A DNA stretch of 64,000 nt. Origin: Variovorax paradoxus (GTDB lineage Bacteria; Pseudomonadota; Gammaproteobacteria; Burkholderiales; Burkholderiaceae_C). The stretch is taken from assembly GCF_009755665.1 (NCBI RefSeq), contig NZ_CP046622.1, forward strand, positions 1,736,001 through 1,800,000. The letters run 5' to 3'. Of the stretch, positions 57,383 through 64,000 are shown in pieces. Under the pieces are notes generated by a model. It had not been told where the DNA came from. It was given only the letters and a program-made list of their open reading frames with translations, and searched no databases. Position 1 is the stretch's first letter; every line of letters starts with the position of its first letter. The position numbers and the translations under genes were made by a program.

Positions 57383-58017
57383 CAAGCGCTACGTTGTTGA
57401 TTCATGGGAGGCAGTCCCGAAGGGAGTGCGTGGGGTTGCTTTGTACCCCACTGCACATACCCCGCGGGGAGCCGCTGCGCCGTCGAATGCTTGGCGAATC
57501 GAACTTTACCCACAACGGGTGCGAAGGCCGAACTGCGACGCATCGGGATAACACGCAGACAGGCGTGCATCCTTTAGGTGCGTCCTGCCTCGCCATGTTG
57601 TCTGACAACAGTTGCGAAACTGCACATCTATCCTCCAAGAATGCCAAAAAGTTCTCAAAACTTGGCCCAGAGAGCGTTGTTACAGTTGTTAAGATTTAAC
57701 GATGTTTTAATTTTGGATTAACACCATTTTGGTGCAAACATCAAGTCGCAGACCGCTCTGACGCGGTAACTCTGCATTTCCTGGCGAAAAGGCGCTTGGA
57801 ATCTCACTGAATATAAAAATTGCAAGCTTATGGAGCAGCGGCATTGGATAGCTGTGCCTGAATAATTCATAAATTCCGAAGAAGAATTGAATTGCTATGC
57901 CAAGCGCGAATTGGTCCGGTCGGGGGAGGCAAATAAACAAAAAGATTTGTAGGGCCGAAAGAGGCGTGGCTGAAGCTGCTGCACCTCGGAGCGGCTGCTT
58001 GTTATTTGGGGGGAATC
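57383..58017. other. AT-richer intergenic region between xthA and the LysR gene
   Basis: A 635-base stretch without a convincing gene. Several short open frames on both strands lack ribosome sites and domain likeness. GC drops clearly from about 57600 to 57900. It holds a perfect dyad GTTAA-GAT-TTAAC (57688–57700) and an NtrC-box-like ACACC-ATTTT-GGTGCA (57721–57736). It probably contains the promoters for xthA and the LysR gene. Confidence 0.6.
57721..57736. promoter_or_regulatory. NtrC-box-like dyad
   Basis: ACACC, ATTTT and GGTGCA closely resemble the NtrC half-site pair (TGCACC-N5-GGTGCA) with one changed position in the left arm. No GG-N10-GC promoter was found within 200 bases on either strand. 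Confidence 0.35.
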
Positions 58018-58908
58018 ATGGATCTATTGATGTCGGACGTGCGGCTTTTCGTGAAGGCCGTGGAGGTAGGGGGGCTGACGCAAGCGGCCGATGCGCTGAG
58101 CGTGCCCAAGGCGTCCGCGTCCCGGCAGCTCAAGCGGCTCGAGGCCCTGGTCGGCCACACGCTCCTGCATCGGGGAGGGGGCCACTTCGGCCTCACGGGG
58201 GAAGGGCGCGAGTTCTTTTCCACGGCCAAGGACGTCCTGGAGGCGGTGGACCAGGCGCTGTCGCAGCTCTCCAACACCAATGAAGCCCTCACGGGCCAGT
58301 TGCGAGTCTCGGTTCCCGGCTACGTCGGCCGCGAGCTGCTCTCGGCCCACCTGTCGGGCTTCATGGCAGCGCATCCGCAGCTCAAGCTCACCGTCGACGT
58401 GGGCTCCGAGCGGGTGGATCTGTTCCGCGAAGACGCCGACGTGGTCATCCGCGTGGGGCTCGAAGGCTGCGAGGACCTTGTGGCAAGGCGCATCAAGAAG
58501 CAGCCCCTTGTGCTGTGCGCCGCACCTTCGTACCTCGAGCGTCATCCGGAAATCAAGGGGATCGACGACCTTTCCGGGCACTACTTCCTGACCAGCGGTC
58601 CGGAGCGGCACGCGATGGAAATGGCCATTCCGGGCGTCGATCGGGAACACGTTGTCAGGGCCGCGGGGGTGTTTCGCGCGAACGATCCGGAACTGCTGCT
58701 GAGGCTTGCCTGCTCGGCCGGTGGAATCGCCCTGGTTCCCCTTCTCTGTGCCAGATCAGCCATCCAGAGCGGCTCCTTGGTGACGGTCCTCCCATCGTTC
58801 GAATTGACGCCGGAAGAGCTGAATCTGATGTATTTGCCCGCCCGGCGCAATACCCGAAAGATCAGAACCTTCGTCGATTTCATCTTCAAGGCTCTAGAGC
58901 AAGCCTGA
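58018..58908 (+). CDS. LysR family transcriptional regulator
   Basis: A 296-aa regulator. The N-terminal winged HTH is MSDVRLFVKAVEVGGLTQAADALSVPKASASRQLKRLEALVGHTLLHR, followed by a LysR substrate-binding domain (LRVSVPGYVGRELLSAHLSGFMAAHPQLKLTVDVGSERVDLFREDADVVIRVG) of the CrgA/AaeR-like subgroup. The ATG at 58018 has GGGGGGAA upstream. The flanks are the two AT-rich gaps. The nearest genes downstream are the DUF11-type proteins on the same strand, but control of them is only possible, not shown. Confidence 0.9.
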   Translation: MDLLMSDVRLFVKAVEVGGLTQAADALSVPKASASRQLKRLEALVGHTLLHRGGGHFGLTGEGREFFSTAKDVLEAVDQALSQLSNTNEALTGQLRVSVPGYVGRELLSAHLSGFMAAHPQLKLTVDVGSERVDLFREDADVVIRVGLEGCEDLVARRIKKQPLVLCAAPSYLERHPEIKGIDDLSGHYFLTSGPERHAMEMAIPGVDREHVVRAAGVFRANDPELLLRLACSAGGIALVPLLCARSAIQSGSLVTVLPSFELTPEELNLMYLPARRNTRKIRTFVDFIFKALEQA

Positions 58909-59309: not shown

Positions 59310-59951
59310 ATGCTTATACAAAAACTGACTCAAACTCTTCTGCGCAAGGCAGCCAGGCTGCCTGCGCTAGCTGCAACCTTCGGCGCCGGTGTGCTTGCCG
59401 TGGCGACTCTCGCCGCGCCAGCCTCGGCGCAGCCCGCCGCCGTCCGGGCCGCCCCCGCGGTCGACAAGACCGTTTCCGTCGCCCTGACGCAATTCAAGGT
59501 AGTGAAGGGCGCCGACGGCAAGGAGCAACTGCTGGACGCTTCTTCGGTCAAGCCCGGCGACATTCTCGAATACCGCGCGACCTATACCAACAACACCGGC
59601 AAGACGGTGTCCGGCCTGGTCGCCGATCTGCCCATTCCTGAGGGGCTCGAGTACCTGCCGCGCAGCGCCAAGCCCGGCGCCGCGCTGGTCAAGGCCGCCA
59701 CCAAGGACGGCGCCTACGCCGCCGAGCCGCTGGTGCGCAAGGCCGCGAACAACAAGACCGAGCCCGTGCCTTACAGCGACTACCGCGCCCTGCGCTGGAC
59801 GCTCGGCCAGCTGCCCGCCGGAGGCGAAGCCGCCGTGACCGCGCGCGCCAAGGTCGAAGTCGTGGTTCCGCCCGAGCCCAAGACCTCCGCCCTCGCTCCG
59901 CAGGCGCCACCCGTGGCCGTGCAGTCCGCCTCTGGCGCGGCCTCGCGCTGA
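59310..59951 (+). CDS. Secreted single-domain DUF11-type protein
   Basis: A 213-aa exported protein. The signal peptide ends about residue 40 (TLAAPASAQ). The body (PGDILEYRATYTNNTGKTVSGLVADLPIPEGLEYLPRSAKPGAALVKA) is one DUF11/Ig-like 'conserved repeat' domain. A Pro/Ala/Val-rich tail follows. It lacks the calcium-loop motif found in its downstream neighbours. It begins a group of three similar secreted proteins and ends 150 bases before the next, separated by a hairpin terminator. Function is unknown; secreted adhesin or surface matrix roles are known for distant DUF11 proteins. Confidence 0.82.
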   Translation: MLIQKLTQTLLRKAARLPALAATFGAGVLAVATLAAPASAQPAAVRAAPAVDKTVSVALTQFKVVKGADGKEQLLDASSVKPGDILEYRATYTNNTGKTVSGLVADLPIPEGLEYLPRSAKPGAALVKAATKDGAYAAEPLVRKAANNKTEPVPYSDYRALRWTLGQLPAGGEAAVTARAKVEVVVPPEPKTSALAPQAPPVAVQSASGAASR

Positions 59952-60020
59952 CCGGTCGGCGGTGGTTTTGCCTCCTGGCTTTTCGTTTTTCTGTTTCCTT
60001 GATCCCTTTGCTATTGCGCG

Positions 60021-60072
60021 CAACCCGGCCGCTGTCTTCCGTTCGCGGAATGCCTGAGCCGGGTTTTTTTTT
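60021..60072 (+). terminator. Nested hairpin terminator with UUCG loop
   Basis: AACCCGGC (60022–60029) pairs with GCCGGGTT (60058–60065). Inside it TTCCG, TTCG and CGGAA (60037–60050) form a second perfect stem with a UUCG tetraloop. A run of nine T follows the outer stem. It separates the two DUF11 genes. Confidence 0.85.
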
Positions 60073-60103
60073 GTTCCTTTTTTGACAACCGAGGAGAAAC
60101 CAC

Positions 60104-63019
60104 GTGAGTCCCACCTTGCCAACCCGGCGCATCGGCTTCAGGCCGAGAGCCACATGGGCTGGTGCCGCAGTTTTGTCGCTGGGCTTCCTGTTTGGAAGCT
60201 CGAGCGCACTTGCAGCGCCGCCGCCCGCCAATACCGTCATCGGTAACCAGGCTTCGGCCACCTATTCGGATTCGTCCGGCACCACGCAGCTGGCCACCTC
60301 CAACCTGGTGCAAACCACGGTGCAGCAGGTCGGATCGTTCACGCTGGACACGTTCAACCAGGTCACGACCACGATCGTCAACACCAAGCTCGGCGCCGCA
60401 GGCTCGGTGGTGTACGCACCGCACGTCTTGACCAACACAGGCAACGGCTCGGACACCTTCACCATCACGGTGGATGCCGACAACGATGCCTTCTCGAAGG
60501 TCGAGGTGTATCCCGACGCGAACGGCGACGGCATGCCCGACAGCACCACGCCGCTGTGTACCGCCGCGCCCGCCGCAGTCTGCAGCGTGCCCGCCCAGAC
60601 CGTGCCCGGCAACAACGGCACGTTCCAGTTTGTCGTGGCCTACACGATCCCCGGCACGGCCACTACGCCGACCACCCCGTTCGATACCGCCACCATCACG
60701 GCCACCCCGGGCACGCCGGCGCTGTACACGGCGCCGAACACCTCGGCAGCGGACAAGGACCAGGTCAACCTGACAACCCAGGCCGCTTTCGGTGCCACCA
60801 AGTCGATCGGTGTTCCAGCAGTGGCGGCCCCTCCCGGTGCGGCCTGGCCGCTCGCGAGCACCGGTGGTCCGCGCTCGTCGTCGGCTTCGTGCTCGACGAC
60901 CTGGGGCGCAGGTATCGTTTCCAGCGACACCTGCAAGTACACGGTCTATACGCTCACCTTCAACAACACCGGCGGAGCGCCCGGCAAGTTCGCCCTGTCG
61001 GACACGTTGCCATCGGGCTTCACCTATGTTGCGGGTTCCGCCGTCTGGAGCAGCGCTCCGGGCGTGGCGCTGGGTGACGGTGCTGCCGGCGATCCGGCCG
61101 GCATGGCCTTCCAGGTGGCGGGCAACACGCTGAACGTGGTCATCGACTCGCTCGGGCAGAACGTCACCCAGACGATCAGCTTCGTGGTGCTGGTGAACAA
61201 CACGGCTGTGGTCGGTACGTCGACCACGACCAACGTGGCCCAGTACAACCCGACGGATTCGCCGACTGCCGACGTCACGGCGATTGGTACGCTGGGTTCG
61301 AGCACCAACCCGGCGGCCTACACCGTCGTCGCCAGCTACGGCCTCGTCGTGGGTACCAACCCCTCGACCGCGGCAACGGCAGTCGACACGGTGGCTGGCA
61401 CGCCCAACGGCACGGCGGCTGACACGACCACGCAGCCCTCGGTGGTTGCAGGCGGCAGCGTCAAGTTCCCGCAGACGGTGTTCAACACCGGCAGCGGCGT
61501 CGACAGCATCAACCTGAGCATTGCCAACGGGACGTTCCCGGCGGGCACGACCTTCCTGCTGTTCGCGGCGGACGGCGTGACGCCGCTGCTCGACACCACA
61601 GGCGACGGCGTGCCCGACACCGGTCCGATTCCGGTCGGCGGCAGCGCCAACATCGTGGTGCAAGCCAACGTTCCGGCCAGCGCCACGGTGGGCTCGGGTC
61701 CGTTCAACGCGGTCCTGACCGGCCGTTCGGCGAACGACCCGACCAAGCTCGACGCCACGCTCGACCAGGTCACCATCGTCGTCGGTTCGCTCGTCGACCT
61801 GACCAACACCGCAGCCGGTACCGGCTCGGGTTCGGTGGCAGGCGGTGACTTGGGCCCAGGCCCCAGCCCACAGCCGACCACGACCAACAGCACGCCTGCG
61901 GGCACCGGCACGATCTTCACGCTGTTCGTCAAGAACAACGATGCGGGCGGCCCGGCAACGCAGACCTACACGCTGGCGGCCAGCCAGTCCACCGGCTTCC
62001 CGGGCACGCTGCCGGCGGGCTGGACGGTGAAGTTCGTGGCAGCGGGCGGTACCTGTGCCGCCGCGGCCATCACCGACGTGACCGTGGCTCGCGGTGCGCA
62101 GCTGCAGGTCGACGCCTGCGTGACGCCTCCCGCCACGCAAACGCCTGTGACGTCCCAGCCGATCTACTTCCGCGTGCTGTCGACCGCGGTGGCATCGACC
62201 GGCGTGCTCGTGTCCGACGCCAAGCAGGACGCGGTGACCGTGACCACGGCGGCAACGCTGGGCGCCACGCTCACGCCCAACAACGTCGGCCAGGTCGCTC
62301 CGGGCGGCACCGTCGTCTATGCGCACACGCTGACCAACATCGGCAACCAGAGCTGCGGCGCGTACACGCTCACGGCCACCGTGCCGGCTGCCGACGCGGC
62401 ACTGGGCTGGACCACCGCGATCTACCTCGACGTGAACGGCGACGGCCAGATCGACGCGCTTGATACCCTGGTTACCGGCCCGATCGCCGGACCGCTCGCG
62501 GCAGGCGCAACGCAGAAGCTGCTGGTGCGCGTGTTCGCACCGGGCGGCGCCAGCGCCGGCGCAACCGACACGACCACCGTGACCGCCACGTTCACCGATC
62601 CGGCGCCGAACTGCGGCACGCCATCGGCCACCGACATCAGCACCGTGATCACCGGCCAGATCCGCGTCCTCAAGACGCAGGCTGCCGACATCGCCTGCGA
62701 CGGCACGGCCGACGGCCTCTTCGCCGCCACGCCGCTGTCGCTGAAGCCTGGCCAGTGCATCGTGTACCGGGTCGTTGCAACCAACGAAGGCACCGCGCCG
62801 ATCACCAACATCGCGATCAACGACGCAGCACCTGCGTTCACGAGCCTGACGGGTGCCACGCAGCCGCCGGTGCTCACGCAATGCGTCTCGACCGGCGTGA
62901 CCGGCACCGCGCTGGCCTATGCCCAGACCCCCACGGCGGTGAGCTGCGGCAGCGCGGCCAACACCGTGGCCCCGGGTGGCACGGCCACGCTGACCTTCGC
63001 AGTGCGAATCGACCAGTAA
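60104..63019 (+). CDS. Large secreted DUF11 multi-domain protein with calcium-loop-like repeats
   Basis: A 971-aa exported protein. The start is GTG at 60104, with GAGGAGA eight to ten bases upstream. The signal peptide ends near SSALAA (about residue 38). The mature start PPPANTVIGNQASATYSDSSG is a recurring first motif in DUF11 proteins. Several Ig-like DUF11 domains follow, each ending in GNQ/GSG-type turns. Three D-x-N/T-G-D-G-x-x-D loops occur (residues 138–146 DANGDGMPD, 497–505 DTTGDGVPD, 776–784 DVNGDGQID), each followed by a P-G-x-T/G and a V-x-A/P tail. The protein has very few charged residues, is rich in Thr/Ala/Gly/Val, and has no membrane anchor or LPXTG. It is likely secreted or outer-surface. 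Function is unknown. Confidence 0.85.
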   Translation: MSPTLPTRRIGFRPRATWAGAAVLSLGFLFGSSSALAAPPPANTVIGNQASATYSDSSGTTQLATSNLVQTTVQQVGSFTLDTFNQVTTTIVNTKLGAAGSVVYAPHVLTNTGNGSDTFTITVDADNDAFSKVEVYPDANGDGMPDSTTPLCTAAPAAVCSVPAQTVPGNNGTFQFVVAYTIPGTATTPTTPFDTATITATPGTPALYTAPNTSAADKDQVNLTTQAAFGATKSIGVPAVAAPPGAAWPLASTGGPRSSSASCSTTWGAGIVSSDTCKYTVYTLTFNNTGGAPGKFALSDTLPSGFTYVAGSAVWSSAPGVALGDGAAGDPAGMAFQVAGNTLNVVIDSLGQNVTQTISFVVLVNNTAVVGTSTTTNVAQYNPTDSPTADVTAIGTLGSSTNPAAYTVVASYGLVVGTNPSTAATAVDTVAGTPNGTAADTTTQPSVVAGGSVKFPQTVFNTGSGVDSINLSIANGTFPAGTTFLLFAADGVTPLLDTTGDGVPDTGPIPVGGSANIVVQANVPASATVGSGPFNAVLTGRSANDPTKLDATLDQVTIVVGSLVDLTNTAAGTGSGSVAGGDLGPGPSPQPTTTNSTPAGTGTIFTLFVKNNDAGGPATQTYTLAASQSTGFPGTLPAGWTVKFVAAGGTCAAAAITDVTVARGAQLQVDACVTPPATQTPVTSQPIYFRVLSTAVASTGVLVSDAKQDAVTVTTAATLGATLTPNNVGQVAPGGTVVYAHTLTNIGNQSCGAYTLTATVPAADAALGWTTAIYLDVNGDGQIDALDTLVTGPIAGPLAAGATQKLLVRVFAPGGASAGATDTTTVTATFTDPAPNCGTPSATDISTVITGQIRVLKTQAADIACDGTADGLFAATPLSLKPGQCIVYRVVATNEGTAPITNIAINDAAPAFTSLTGATQPPVLTQCVSTGVTGTALAYAQTPTAVSCGSAANTVAPGGTATLTFAVRIDQ

Positions 63020-63034
63020 CGCGCGATTGAGTCA

Positions 63035-63064
63035 CCGGCAGGCCTCTCCAGGCCTGCCGGCTTT
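63035..63064 (+). terminator. Perfect 11-bp stem-loop after the large DUF11 gene
   Basis: CCGGCAGGCCT (63035–63045) and AGGCCTGCCGG (63050–63060) pair perfectly around CTCC, followed by CTTT. The short T-run makes termination partial or factor-assisted. Confidence 0.65.
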
Positions 63065-63209
63065 ACGCGAGGCGCCGCCTTCACGGCTGCGCTTCGCCTT
63101 TTTCCCCTGCTGCTTTCCGGCGCGAGTGCTCGCGTGCGCATGGCAGCGGCAGAGGAAAGAGACCCAGGTATTCACGGCCCCAGCAGGCGCCGACGGAAGG
63201 TTAAGCGGA

Positions 63210-64000
63210 GTGCAATTCTTGTCTGACTCATTGATGGGCTGCTGCTTGCAGCGATGGCGCCGAGCCGGCGCCACGCTCGCGATCGGCCTGGCGCTGCTCC
63301 TGGCGCTTTTCCTGACGCTGTTCCTCGCGTCGGCCGCGGTGCATGCGGCACCCGCGCCCGGTGGCAGCGTGATCCGCAATGTGGCAAAGGCCAGCTATGT
63401 GCCGGCCGGCTTTGCGCAGACCGAAACCTCCAGCTCCAACAGCGTGGTGGCGAACGTCCTCGCGGTCGAGGCGCTGGTGCTGACGCAAGACCAGGCCGTC
63501 AACCGTCCGCCCGCCACCGTGGTCACGCTGAACCACCTGCTCACCAACACCGGCAACGTGCCTTCGAGCTATGCGCTGGGCTTTGCCAACAACGTGGGCG
63601 GCTGCGCGGCCGACACGCTCGACCTTTCGACCCTGCGCGTGGTGCGCGACATCAACAACAACGGCGTGGCGGACCCGGGCGATCCGGTGCTGCCGCTCGG
63701 CGCGCCCGGCGCGCTGGCGCTGCGGCCCGGCGAAACGGCCTCGCTGCTCGTGCAGGGCACGGTTCCGGCCACCGGTGCCGGCGTTGCCTGCGCCGCGCTC
63801 ACGGCGACCACCGCGTTGCAGAACCTGAGCGCCACCAACCGCGACACCGTGACGGTGGGCGACATGGCGGTGATCTCCATCAGCAAAAGCGCGAGCTACC
63901 CGGGTGTCATCGTGCCGGGGCAGACCCGCATCGACTTTGCGGTCTCGGGCACCAACATCGGCGCGCGCGATGCGCAGCCCGCCAGCGTGGCCGCGCCGAC
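63210..64000 (+). CDS. Third DUF11-type secreted protein (3' truncated by window edge)
   Basis: The open frame continues past the right edge, so at least 263 residues are seen. A Leu-rich signal peptide or anchor (ATLAIGLALLLALFLTLFLASAAVHA) leads to APGGSVIRNVAKASYVPAGFAQ, the same opening pattern as its neighbour. A DxN-type loop RDINNNGVADPGDP begins near residue 147, again followed by PGETASLLVQGTVPATGAG. The start may be GTG 63210 or TTG 63219, since both have purine-rich sites upstream. It is probably the large main component of the locus. C-terminal features cannot be seen. Confidence 0.75.
   Translation, partial: MQFLSDSLMGCCLQRWRRAGATLAIGLALLLALFLTLFLASAAVHAAPAPGGSVIRNVAKASYVPAGFAQTETSSSNSVVANVLAVEALVLTQDQAVNRPPATVVTLNHLLTNTGNVPSSYALGFANNVGGCAADTLDLSTLRVVRDINNNGVADPGDPVLPLGAPGALALRPGETASLLVQGTVPATGAGVACAALTATTALQNLSATNRDTVTVGDMAVISISKSASYPGVIVPGQTRIDFAVSGTNIGARDAQPASVAAP

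Follow-up and report, generated by a model that had tools for sequence, protein, structure and literature searches.

The question raised by this locus is how large exported proteins of the DUF11 type, encoded in a row at the right end of a 64,000-nucleotide stretch of the Variovorax paradoxus genome (NCBI RefSeq assembly GCF_009755665.1, contig NZ_CP046622.1; the whole stretch is referred to as the window), are joined to one another and held on the cell. The window corresponds to bases 1736001-1800000 of a single-contig 5.57-Mb genome, and a + strand row of four genes, g1-g2-g3-g4, was seen by reading beyond its right edge. g1 (59310-59951) encodes an exported protein of 213 amino acids (aa) with one DUF11 domain, and g2 (60104-63019) encodes the proposed shaft subunit of 971 aa. 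g3, the proposed base subunit, occupies 63234-64000 in the window and runs on to genome base 1806484, and g4, the proposed tip of 2414 aa, lies outside the window at genome bases 1806481-1813725. It is rather probable that these four genes encode an outer-membrane-anchored, pilus-like fibre whose subunits are joined by donor-strand complementation, with an isopeptide domain naturally split between them, which would explain how chains without a membrane anchor could remain on the cell. A first-pass annotation of the window had described three tandem + strand open reading frames (ORFs) for exported surface proteins with homologous repeat modules. Their positions were borne out, with g3 open at the right window edge, the export and the repeat modules were supported, and the supposed set of three proved to be a strongly linked trio followed by a fourth gene, g4, beyond the window.

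A crystal structure of a DUF11 domain appeared in 2025 under the new name CLIPPER, with a Lys-Asn bond that is presumably Asp-assisted and the Asn near the domain end (PMC12617251; published papers are cited here and below from parts of their texts, and what is said of them concerns those parts). The earlier view of DUF11 as a domain almost without assigned role has been overtaken by this structure. With the Pfam cut-off for DUF11 (PF01345) at 24.6 bits, g3 (44.0 bits), g4 (32.4 bits) and the C-terminus of g2 alone (24.9 bits) scored above it, whole g2 (20.0 bits) scored below it and g1 (23.4 bits) slightly below it; the CnaA-like fold of CLIPPER was found as well. Gene sorting and the counts of donors and conserved residues in loci were based on the best 80 of 317 stretches with a g2 relative obtained by a one-genome-per-species scan, together with the loci of the genome sets. 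Many of the fetched loci are from Variovorax, two of them (L077 and G044) are probably one record counted twice (their gene sets are alike), and the sorting models of g1, g3 and g4 were made from four sequences each. Conservation in the listed g2 family was counted in 120 of the 1265 proteins matching the g2 profile at E<=1e-5 (own protein included, 846-971 aa), and one analysis of these left out P0006, P0008, P0009, P0010, P0020 (the own protein) and P0024. The complete DUF11 domain of g3 carries Lys, Asp and Asn in 67, 66 and 66 of 69 sequences, respectively. A complete CLIPPER domain is also present inside g2 (domain 2, 60782-61327, + strand), with Lys233 (60800), Asp300 (61001) and Asn377 (61232); Lys233 and Asn377 occur together in 92 of the 120 listed g2, are both absent from 28 and never occur singly. 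Sortase pilins were the structure match of this domain.

The terminal domains are built otherwise: the C-terminal DUF11 of g2 and g4 reaches only column 92 of the 135 columns of the complete g3 DUF11, the hairpin absent from it is the last, Asn-bearing one, and the chain ends there (VRINP or similar). In g2 this C-terminal CLIPPER without last hairpin, termed the acceptor, lies at 62651-63016 (+ strand) with Lys857 (62672) and Asp907 (62822) and ends in VRIDQ. A candidate for the absent hairpin, termed the donor, stands at residues 38-80 of g2 (60215-60343, + strand); it starts with APPPANTVIGNQASATYSD and bears Asn48 (60245-60247), which is present in 120 of the 120 listed g2. By hhalign, the N-terminal 43 residues of the mature protein, from APPPANTVIGNQASATYSD onwards, align to the terminal hairpin of domain 2 with a probability of 96% (E 3.6e-9, score 40.4); in the control, with 94 non-overlapping windows from the rest of g2, the highest score was 15.6. 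When the g2 C-terminus was joined to the g2 N-terminus, the alignment to domain 2 crossed the junction with a single one-residue gap nearby, and its E value improved from 1.5e-9 to 2.2e-14. With an independent model made from g3 domains, the hairpin gave a mean gain of 6.5 bits, compared with 1.5 for hairpins that had been shuffled and 0.9 for random segments; this test used the 84 of 97 g2 ORFs in which both motifs had been found and hence was not blind. Two results with the Pfam model weigh against the split-domain interpretation, since the DUF11 score barely rises, and once falls, on joining the g2 donor to the g2 C-terminus, and in one of two genomes the gain was no larger than with a wrong donor. 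The end of the Pfam DUF11 alignment shifts from position 84 to position 100 on the same joining. The donor gave a weak match to the g3 domain tail alone, and g2 domain 2 was therefore taken as the stronger comparison.

A donor hairpin was also found in g3 (63348-63476, + strand; starting with APAPGGSVIRNVAKASYVP), with its Asn at 63378-63380, and in the own genome both g2 and g3 have their donor Asn at the 11th position past the presumed cleavage site. The donor model scored above 5 bits within the first 200 residues in 90 of 99 g2 and 60 of 69 g3, and in 0 of 80 g1 and 0 of 34 g4. At the stricter threshold of E<=1e-3 only 10 g3 were matched, and among 8175 ORFs there was no match beyond g2, g3 and their pieces. 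Thirteen g2 ORFs had no donor match at this threshold: five start at the locus edge, four begin upstream of the gene or in another frame, and four (L102, L107, L110 and L117) show a diverged hairpin with the Asn kept, as judged by eye. The g3 ORF of G078 starts without a recognisable donor. From this motif distribution, g3 was assigned a donor only, g2 a donor and an acceptor, and both g1 and g4 just an acceptor. What the sequences themselves show is a split domain, the way its parts are shared out among the genes, the residues that are conserved, and the operon. A donor in the base, a donor plus an acceptor in the shaft and an acceptor in the tip make up the logic of a donor-strand pilus.

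Structure prediction was consistent with such a joint. A single chain made of the g2 acceptor and the g3 donor was predicted with confidence, at a pTM (predicted template modelling score) of 0.80, and could be superposed on the CLIPPER crystal for 120 of 123 residues, and by this prediction the g3 donor would fit and complete the g2 acceptor. CLIPPER was recovered for the joined chain by fold comparison only: searched by sequence against the PDB, the joined chain returned two weak and irrelevant matches, and its profile none. The Foldseek PDB list, which was led by integrins with a high root-mean-square deviation and also holds SpaD, was not used. The hairpin could instead fold back within its own g2 chain as a ring or cap, the proteins then being independent adhesins, and in the model of mature g2 the hairpin (predicted local distance difference test 79-87), followed by a weak linker (60 and 54), is probably docked within the single chain. 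A g3 with a donor yet a barrel end and a g4 with an acceptor yet no donor are sensible only between chains, and folding back is considered improbable. Joining between chains could also stop at one copy of each, giving an adhesin of fixed length in which one g3, one g2 and one g4 are linked by the same strand swap and g2 is unpolymerised; the acceptor and donor data fit single copies equally well, and g4 alone can exceed 2400 aa with its own SpaA_4 run. This is rather unlikely, as g2 has both a donor and the matching acceptor of one family, and two or three g2 genes are found in L107, L110 and L117, like pili with several shaft subunits.

For the covalency of the joint, acceptor residues were counted in complete 3' ends only (29 of 34 g4 and 97 of 99 g2). 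Lys and Asp are each present in 29 of 29 g4 acceptors, and in 94 and 95 of the 97 g2 acceptors of the fetched loci, respectively. In the acceptors of the 120 listed g2, both residues are present in 97, neither in 20 and Asp alone in three, and on a tree built without these columns six changes of Lys and five of Asp were placed. Lys and Asp are mostly lost together, as expected of a covalent joint, and their retention in a domain without its own Asn strand would be of little use unless Asn were supplied from elsewhere. The bond is opposed by two observations: Asn48 stays in all 120 g2 even when the acceptor Lys is lost, unlike the Asn of domain 2, and Asn is missing in 10 of 60 g3 donors. On one reading Asn48 is retained as the donor must still lock into g4, the Lys of which is invariant in 29; on another Asn48 is structural. 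Because Asn48 persists without Lys and these g3 donors lack Asn, strand donation is held likelier than the bond. The same two observations would suit a donor-strand fibre without any covalent joint, with Lys and Asp kept for other reasons or in some lineages only. Such a fibre is possible and is given about the same small chance as the fixed-length adhesin, for the g4 Lys and Asp are invariant and the mostly joint loss in g2 is a mark of isopeptide chemistry in a domain without its own Asn strand. The 23 of 120 listed g2 without the acceptor Lys857 (P0039, P0053, P0067 and 20 others; 20 of the 23 also without Asp) all keep Asn48 and form a natural test of strand donation without the bond.

The C-terminal region of g3 bears on the anchoring. 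Besides its complete DUF11, g3 holds a DUF7507 match (35.2 bits) and a weak SdrD_B-like stretch; its long C-terminal region had no Pfam model above its cut-off, and the Pfam autotransporter barrel was not among the 12 families at E<=1 for g3. A profile of the C-terminal region from 59 loci matched the porin OmpT with E ~1e-4 over 137 of 1025 positions, and because of this match the region was read as probably an outer-membrane beta-barrel. Reading the contig rightward, as the first-pass annotation had proposed, thus led to a g3 C-terminus that is a probable barrel, and then to g4. The earlier statement that nothing anchors the 971-aa protein stands for the chain itself and fails for the system, as g3 offers a probable barrel together with a matching donor strand. 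Six other barrel regions were fetched, of which one had no ORF under the filter and five were examined. In these five (L118-L122, from G047, G058, G005, G039 and G035) the barrel is a separate protein of ~1100-1270 aa, which adjoins a giant DUF11 protein without a donor-motif match in four, and an OmpA-like-ending ORF stands beside it in L120, L121 and L122. They were set aside as another architecture, one with no donor-motif match.

At the other end of the row, g4 contains eight SpaA_4 stretches (611.5 bits in total), three DUF11 stretches and a sub-threshold Big_1, and the Lys-Glu-Asn set is kept in seven of the eight SpaA_4 repeats by eye. SpaA_3 (PF20674) had been tried for these repeats; the own genome gave no match, the control was silent too, and the repeats are SpaA_4. 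The N-terminal part of seven scanned g4 consists of SpaA_4 in three, a beta-helix with carboxypeptidase-regulatory-like domains in two, GEVED in one and none of these in one, and DUF11 passed E 1e-3 in five of the seven. The barrel in g3, the variable N-terminus in g4 and the distribution of donors and acceptors lead to the layout of base, shaft and tip. The DUF11 of g1 also lacks the last hairpin (its alignment to the complete g3 domain stops at column 92 of 135). With the catalytic columns placed by eye, no conserved Asp was found near the isopeptide place in 80 g1 (Ala 68, Thr 45 plus Asp 15, or Leu 60, depending on the alignment), and near the Lys place there was Lys in 47 and Arg in 19 of the 80.

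In the proposed assembly, g3 would be the base, with its C-terminal barrel in the outer membrane and its mature N-terminus as a donor hairpin; g2 would be the shaft, its N-terminal donor hairpin entering the incomplete C-terminal CLIPPER of the next subunit and its own C-terminal acceptor receiving the donor of g3 or of another g2; and g4 would be the tip, with a variable adhesive or stalk-like N-terminal part and an acceptor only. Once docked, the hairpin would form a spontaneous isopeptide bond between the acceptor Lys and the donor Asn with the acceptor Asp assisting. g1, acceptor-like and without a conserved catalytic Asp, may reversibly hold or cap donor strands, presumably in the periplasm. 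Assembly between chains in the cell, covalency, polymerisation of g2, the crossing of the outer membrane by the subunits and the role of g1 are what we infer from the sequences and models. The adhesin-like role ascribed to these proteins in the first-pass annotation agrees with this assembly.

Several known systems are comparable. In chaperone-usher pili an N-terminal donor strand completes the incomplete Ig-like domain of the neighbour, and there are a shaft, a tip and an outer-membrane component (PMC9715654). By sequence and prediction, the subunits described here likewise have an N-terminal donor and an incomplete Ig-like acceptor; in contrast to chaperone-usher pili, the acceptor is an isopeptide domain of the CLIPPER type that forms the C-terminal end of a large, multidomain subunit, and the barrel is fused to the base subunit, unlike in type 1 and P pili. 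No Pfam family of a PapD-like chaperone or a FimD-like usher was found at E<=1 in g1-g4. Archaeal threads (Saci_0406) combine donor-strand complementation with intermolecular isopeptide bonds and have no known sortase (PMC9715654, PMC11607397). In these threads Asp24 is bonded through its N-terminal amino group to Asn57 two subunits off, whereas here the bond would be Lys-Asn in the completed domain, and the threads are made of one small subunit and reported from crenarchaea. Fibrillar adhesins with CLIPPER/DUF11 share the domain family, the Lys-Asp-Asn triad and a place among Gram-negative surface proteins, but their bonds are described within one long chain, and the 'intermolecular' passages in the parts used of that paper do not concern DUF11 (PMC12617251). 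Sortase pili (SpaA, BcpA, EbpB and RrgB) gave the best structural matches of the models and also have base, shaft, tip and isopeptide domains; unlike theirs, the joint here would be a completed domain, and no sortase C-terminal sorting signal was found: among the 120 listed g2, the 20 C-terminal tetrapeptides that occur most often are RINP-like. In SpyTag/SpyCatcher the two parts of a split isopeptide domain, a strand and the rest of the domain, react when they meet (PMC6539128), but that split was man-made from one domain, whereas the present one would be natural and serve assembly. GhlA is also a DUF11-domain filament, but it is a giant chain with 49 DUF11 domains, and in the main text of its report, as far as used here, 'donor strand' and 'isopeptide' occur 0 times (PMC13319060). 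In open-licence literature, preprint servers excluded, no report of such a system, or of donor-strand joining with CLIPPER in bacteria, was found. The chances are about even that the fibre represents a pilus class new to bacteria, in which every joint is a split isopeptide domain formed by strand donation and then a spontaneous inter-subunit Lys-Asn bond, with neither a sortase nor a known chaperone-usher pair, and whose growth starts from, or passes through, a giant outer-membrane barrel that is fused to the base subunit. The proposal gives a concrete assembly rule for Gram-negative DUF11 proteins (base donor, shaft donor plus acceptor, tip acceptor), and should the joint prove covalent, bacteria would have a natural counterpart of SpyTag/SpyCatcher and a parallel to the archaeal thread. 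The proposal would also explain why proteins of ~880 aa keep the same gene partners in loci whose labels span several phyla.

The linkage of the genes was examined in genome sets and in the fetched loci. In the family, g1 and g2 occurred in the same four of 100 genomes (own genome included), with g3 adjoining and the order g1-g2-g3-g4 in all four, and the g3 barrel occurred in 21 of the 100, these four among them. Recognised genes lie on one strand in 80 of the best 80 loci, where g1 adjoins g2 in 75 and g2 adjoins g3 in 64; g4 was recognised in 31, and the flank that had been fetched often stopped short of it. The linkage of the three genes, which the first-pass annotation had proposed to check, is supported. 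Eight loci extend more than 4 kb past g3 without a recognised gene in that part; in all eight another long ORF leaves the locus, and in four it follows an ORF whose end looks OmpA-type (by eye only). The best 80 loci are above all from Variovorax, with Curvibacter, Polaromonas, Thiobacillus, Thiothrix, Acinetobacter and metagenome bins labelled Desulfuromonadales, Acidobacteriaceae and others, and the g1-g2-g3 order is shared over a range that extends from Variovorax to Acinetobacter and Thiothrix. Against 200 phylum genomes the g2 profile matched 24, mostly in parts of other DUF11 proteins, and reached E<1e-100 only in G000, G179, G263 and G297. The 1265 proteins matching the shaft profile suggest that the system is widespread.

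Calcium-type loops had been put at the centre of the first-pass annotation. The repeated Asp/Asn loops are indeed present where it had placed them, with conserved key positions, and the central feature is instead the split isopeptide domain. On the + strand, loop 1 (DANGDGMPDSTT, g2 residue 138) lies at 60515-60550 and loop 2 (DTTGDGVPDTGP, residue 497) at 61592-61627, both with conserved positions; loop 3 (DVNGDGQIDALD, residue 776) lies at 62429-62464 with an EF-hand-like spacing, and the calcium-type loop of g3 (DINNNGVADPGD) at 63648-63683. Asp/Asn at positions 1, 3, 5, 9 and 12 are found in loop 3, and loops 1 and 2 are shorter matches. Among the 120 listed g2, D138, N140 and G143 of loop 1 are kept in 119, 117 and 120, respectively, with looser positions at 142 (D 71, S 47) and 146 (D 72, gap 48); D497, N499 and D505 of loop 2 are kept in 118, 106 and 120; and D776, N778, N/D780, D784 and D787 of loop 3 in 120, 115, 111, 117 and 120. 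Since the key positions are conserved, the loops are not there by chance, and calcium may stiffen the loop modules. This conservation also speaks for the calcium-binding surface layer or matrix put forward in the first-pass annotation, which is nevertheless very improbable, given that the operon encodes a probable outer-membrane barrel and that its strand logic is that of a linear fibre; no pointer to such a layer turned up, although no test aimed at layers was made.

Some further observations concern the operon and its surroundings. A secretion signal stands at the N-terminus of g1-g4 (by eye), and the g4 start overlaps the g3 stop by 4 bases. g3 has 2485 codons when counted from TTG 63027 to the stop at genome base 1806484; a start at GTG 63210 fits the more than 263 residues given in the first-pass annotation, and ATG 63234 gives a cleaner signal peptide by eye. 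A Variovorax sp. CCNWLW235 protein shares 98% identity with the own g2. Two or three g2-like genes were observed in L107, L110, L115, L116 and L117 (Acinetobacter, Alkanindiges) and in L094, L108 and L111 (Thiothrix), and such expanded operons, with g4 before g1 in the Acinetobacter group and after the last g2 in Thiothrix, suggest several shaft subunits. The operon was also seen in bins labelled Armatimonadetes, Thermodesulfovibrionales, Verrucomicrobiaceae and Acidobacteria (L067, L068, L072, L080 and L090), by lateral transfer or mis-binning. In L040, L045, L057 and L067, g1, g2 or g3 is apparently split into two ORFs, by decay or sequencing error. A partial stray copy of g1 lies at G099:C1:1891474-1891761 (L012, L032), ~7.6 kb past the end of g4. 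Upstream of g1, a gene for a LysR-type regulator is present at 58006-58908, with ~400 partly AT-rich bases between the two.
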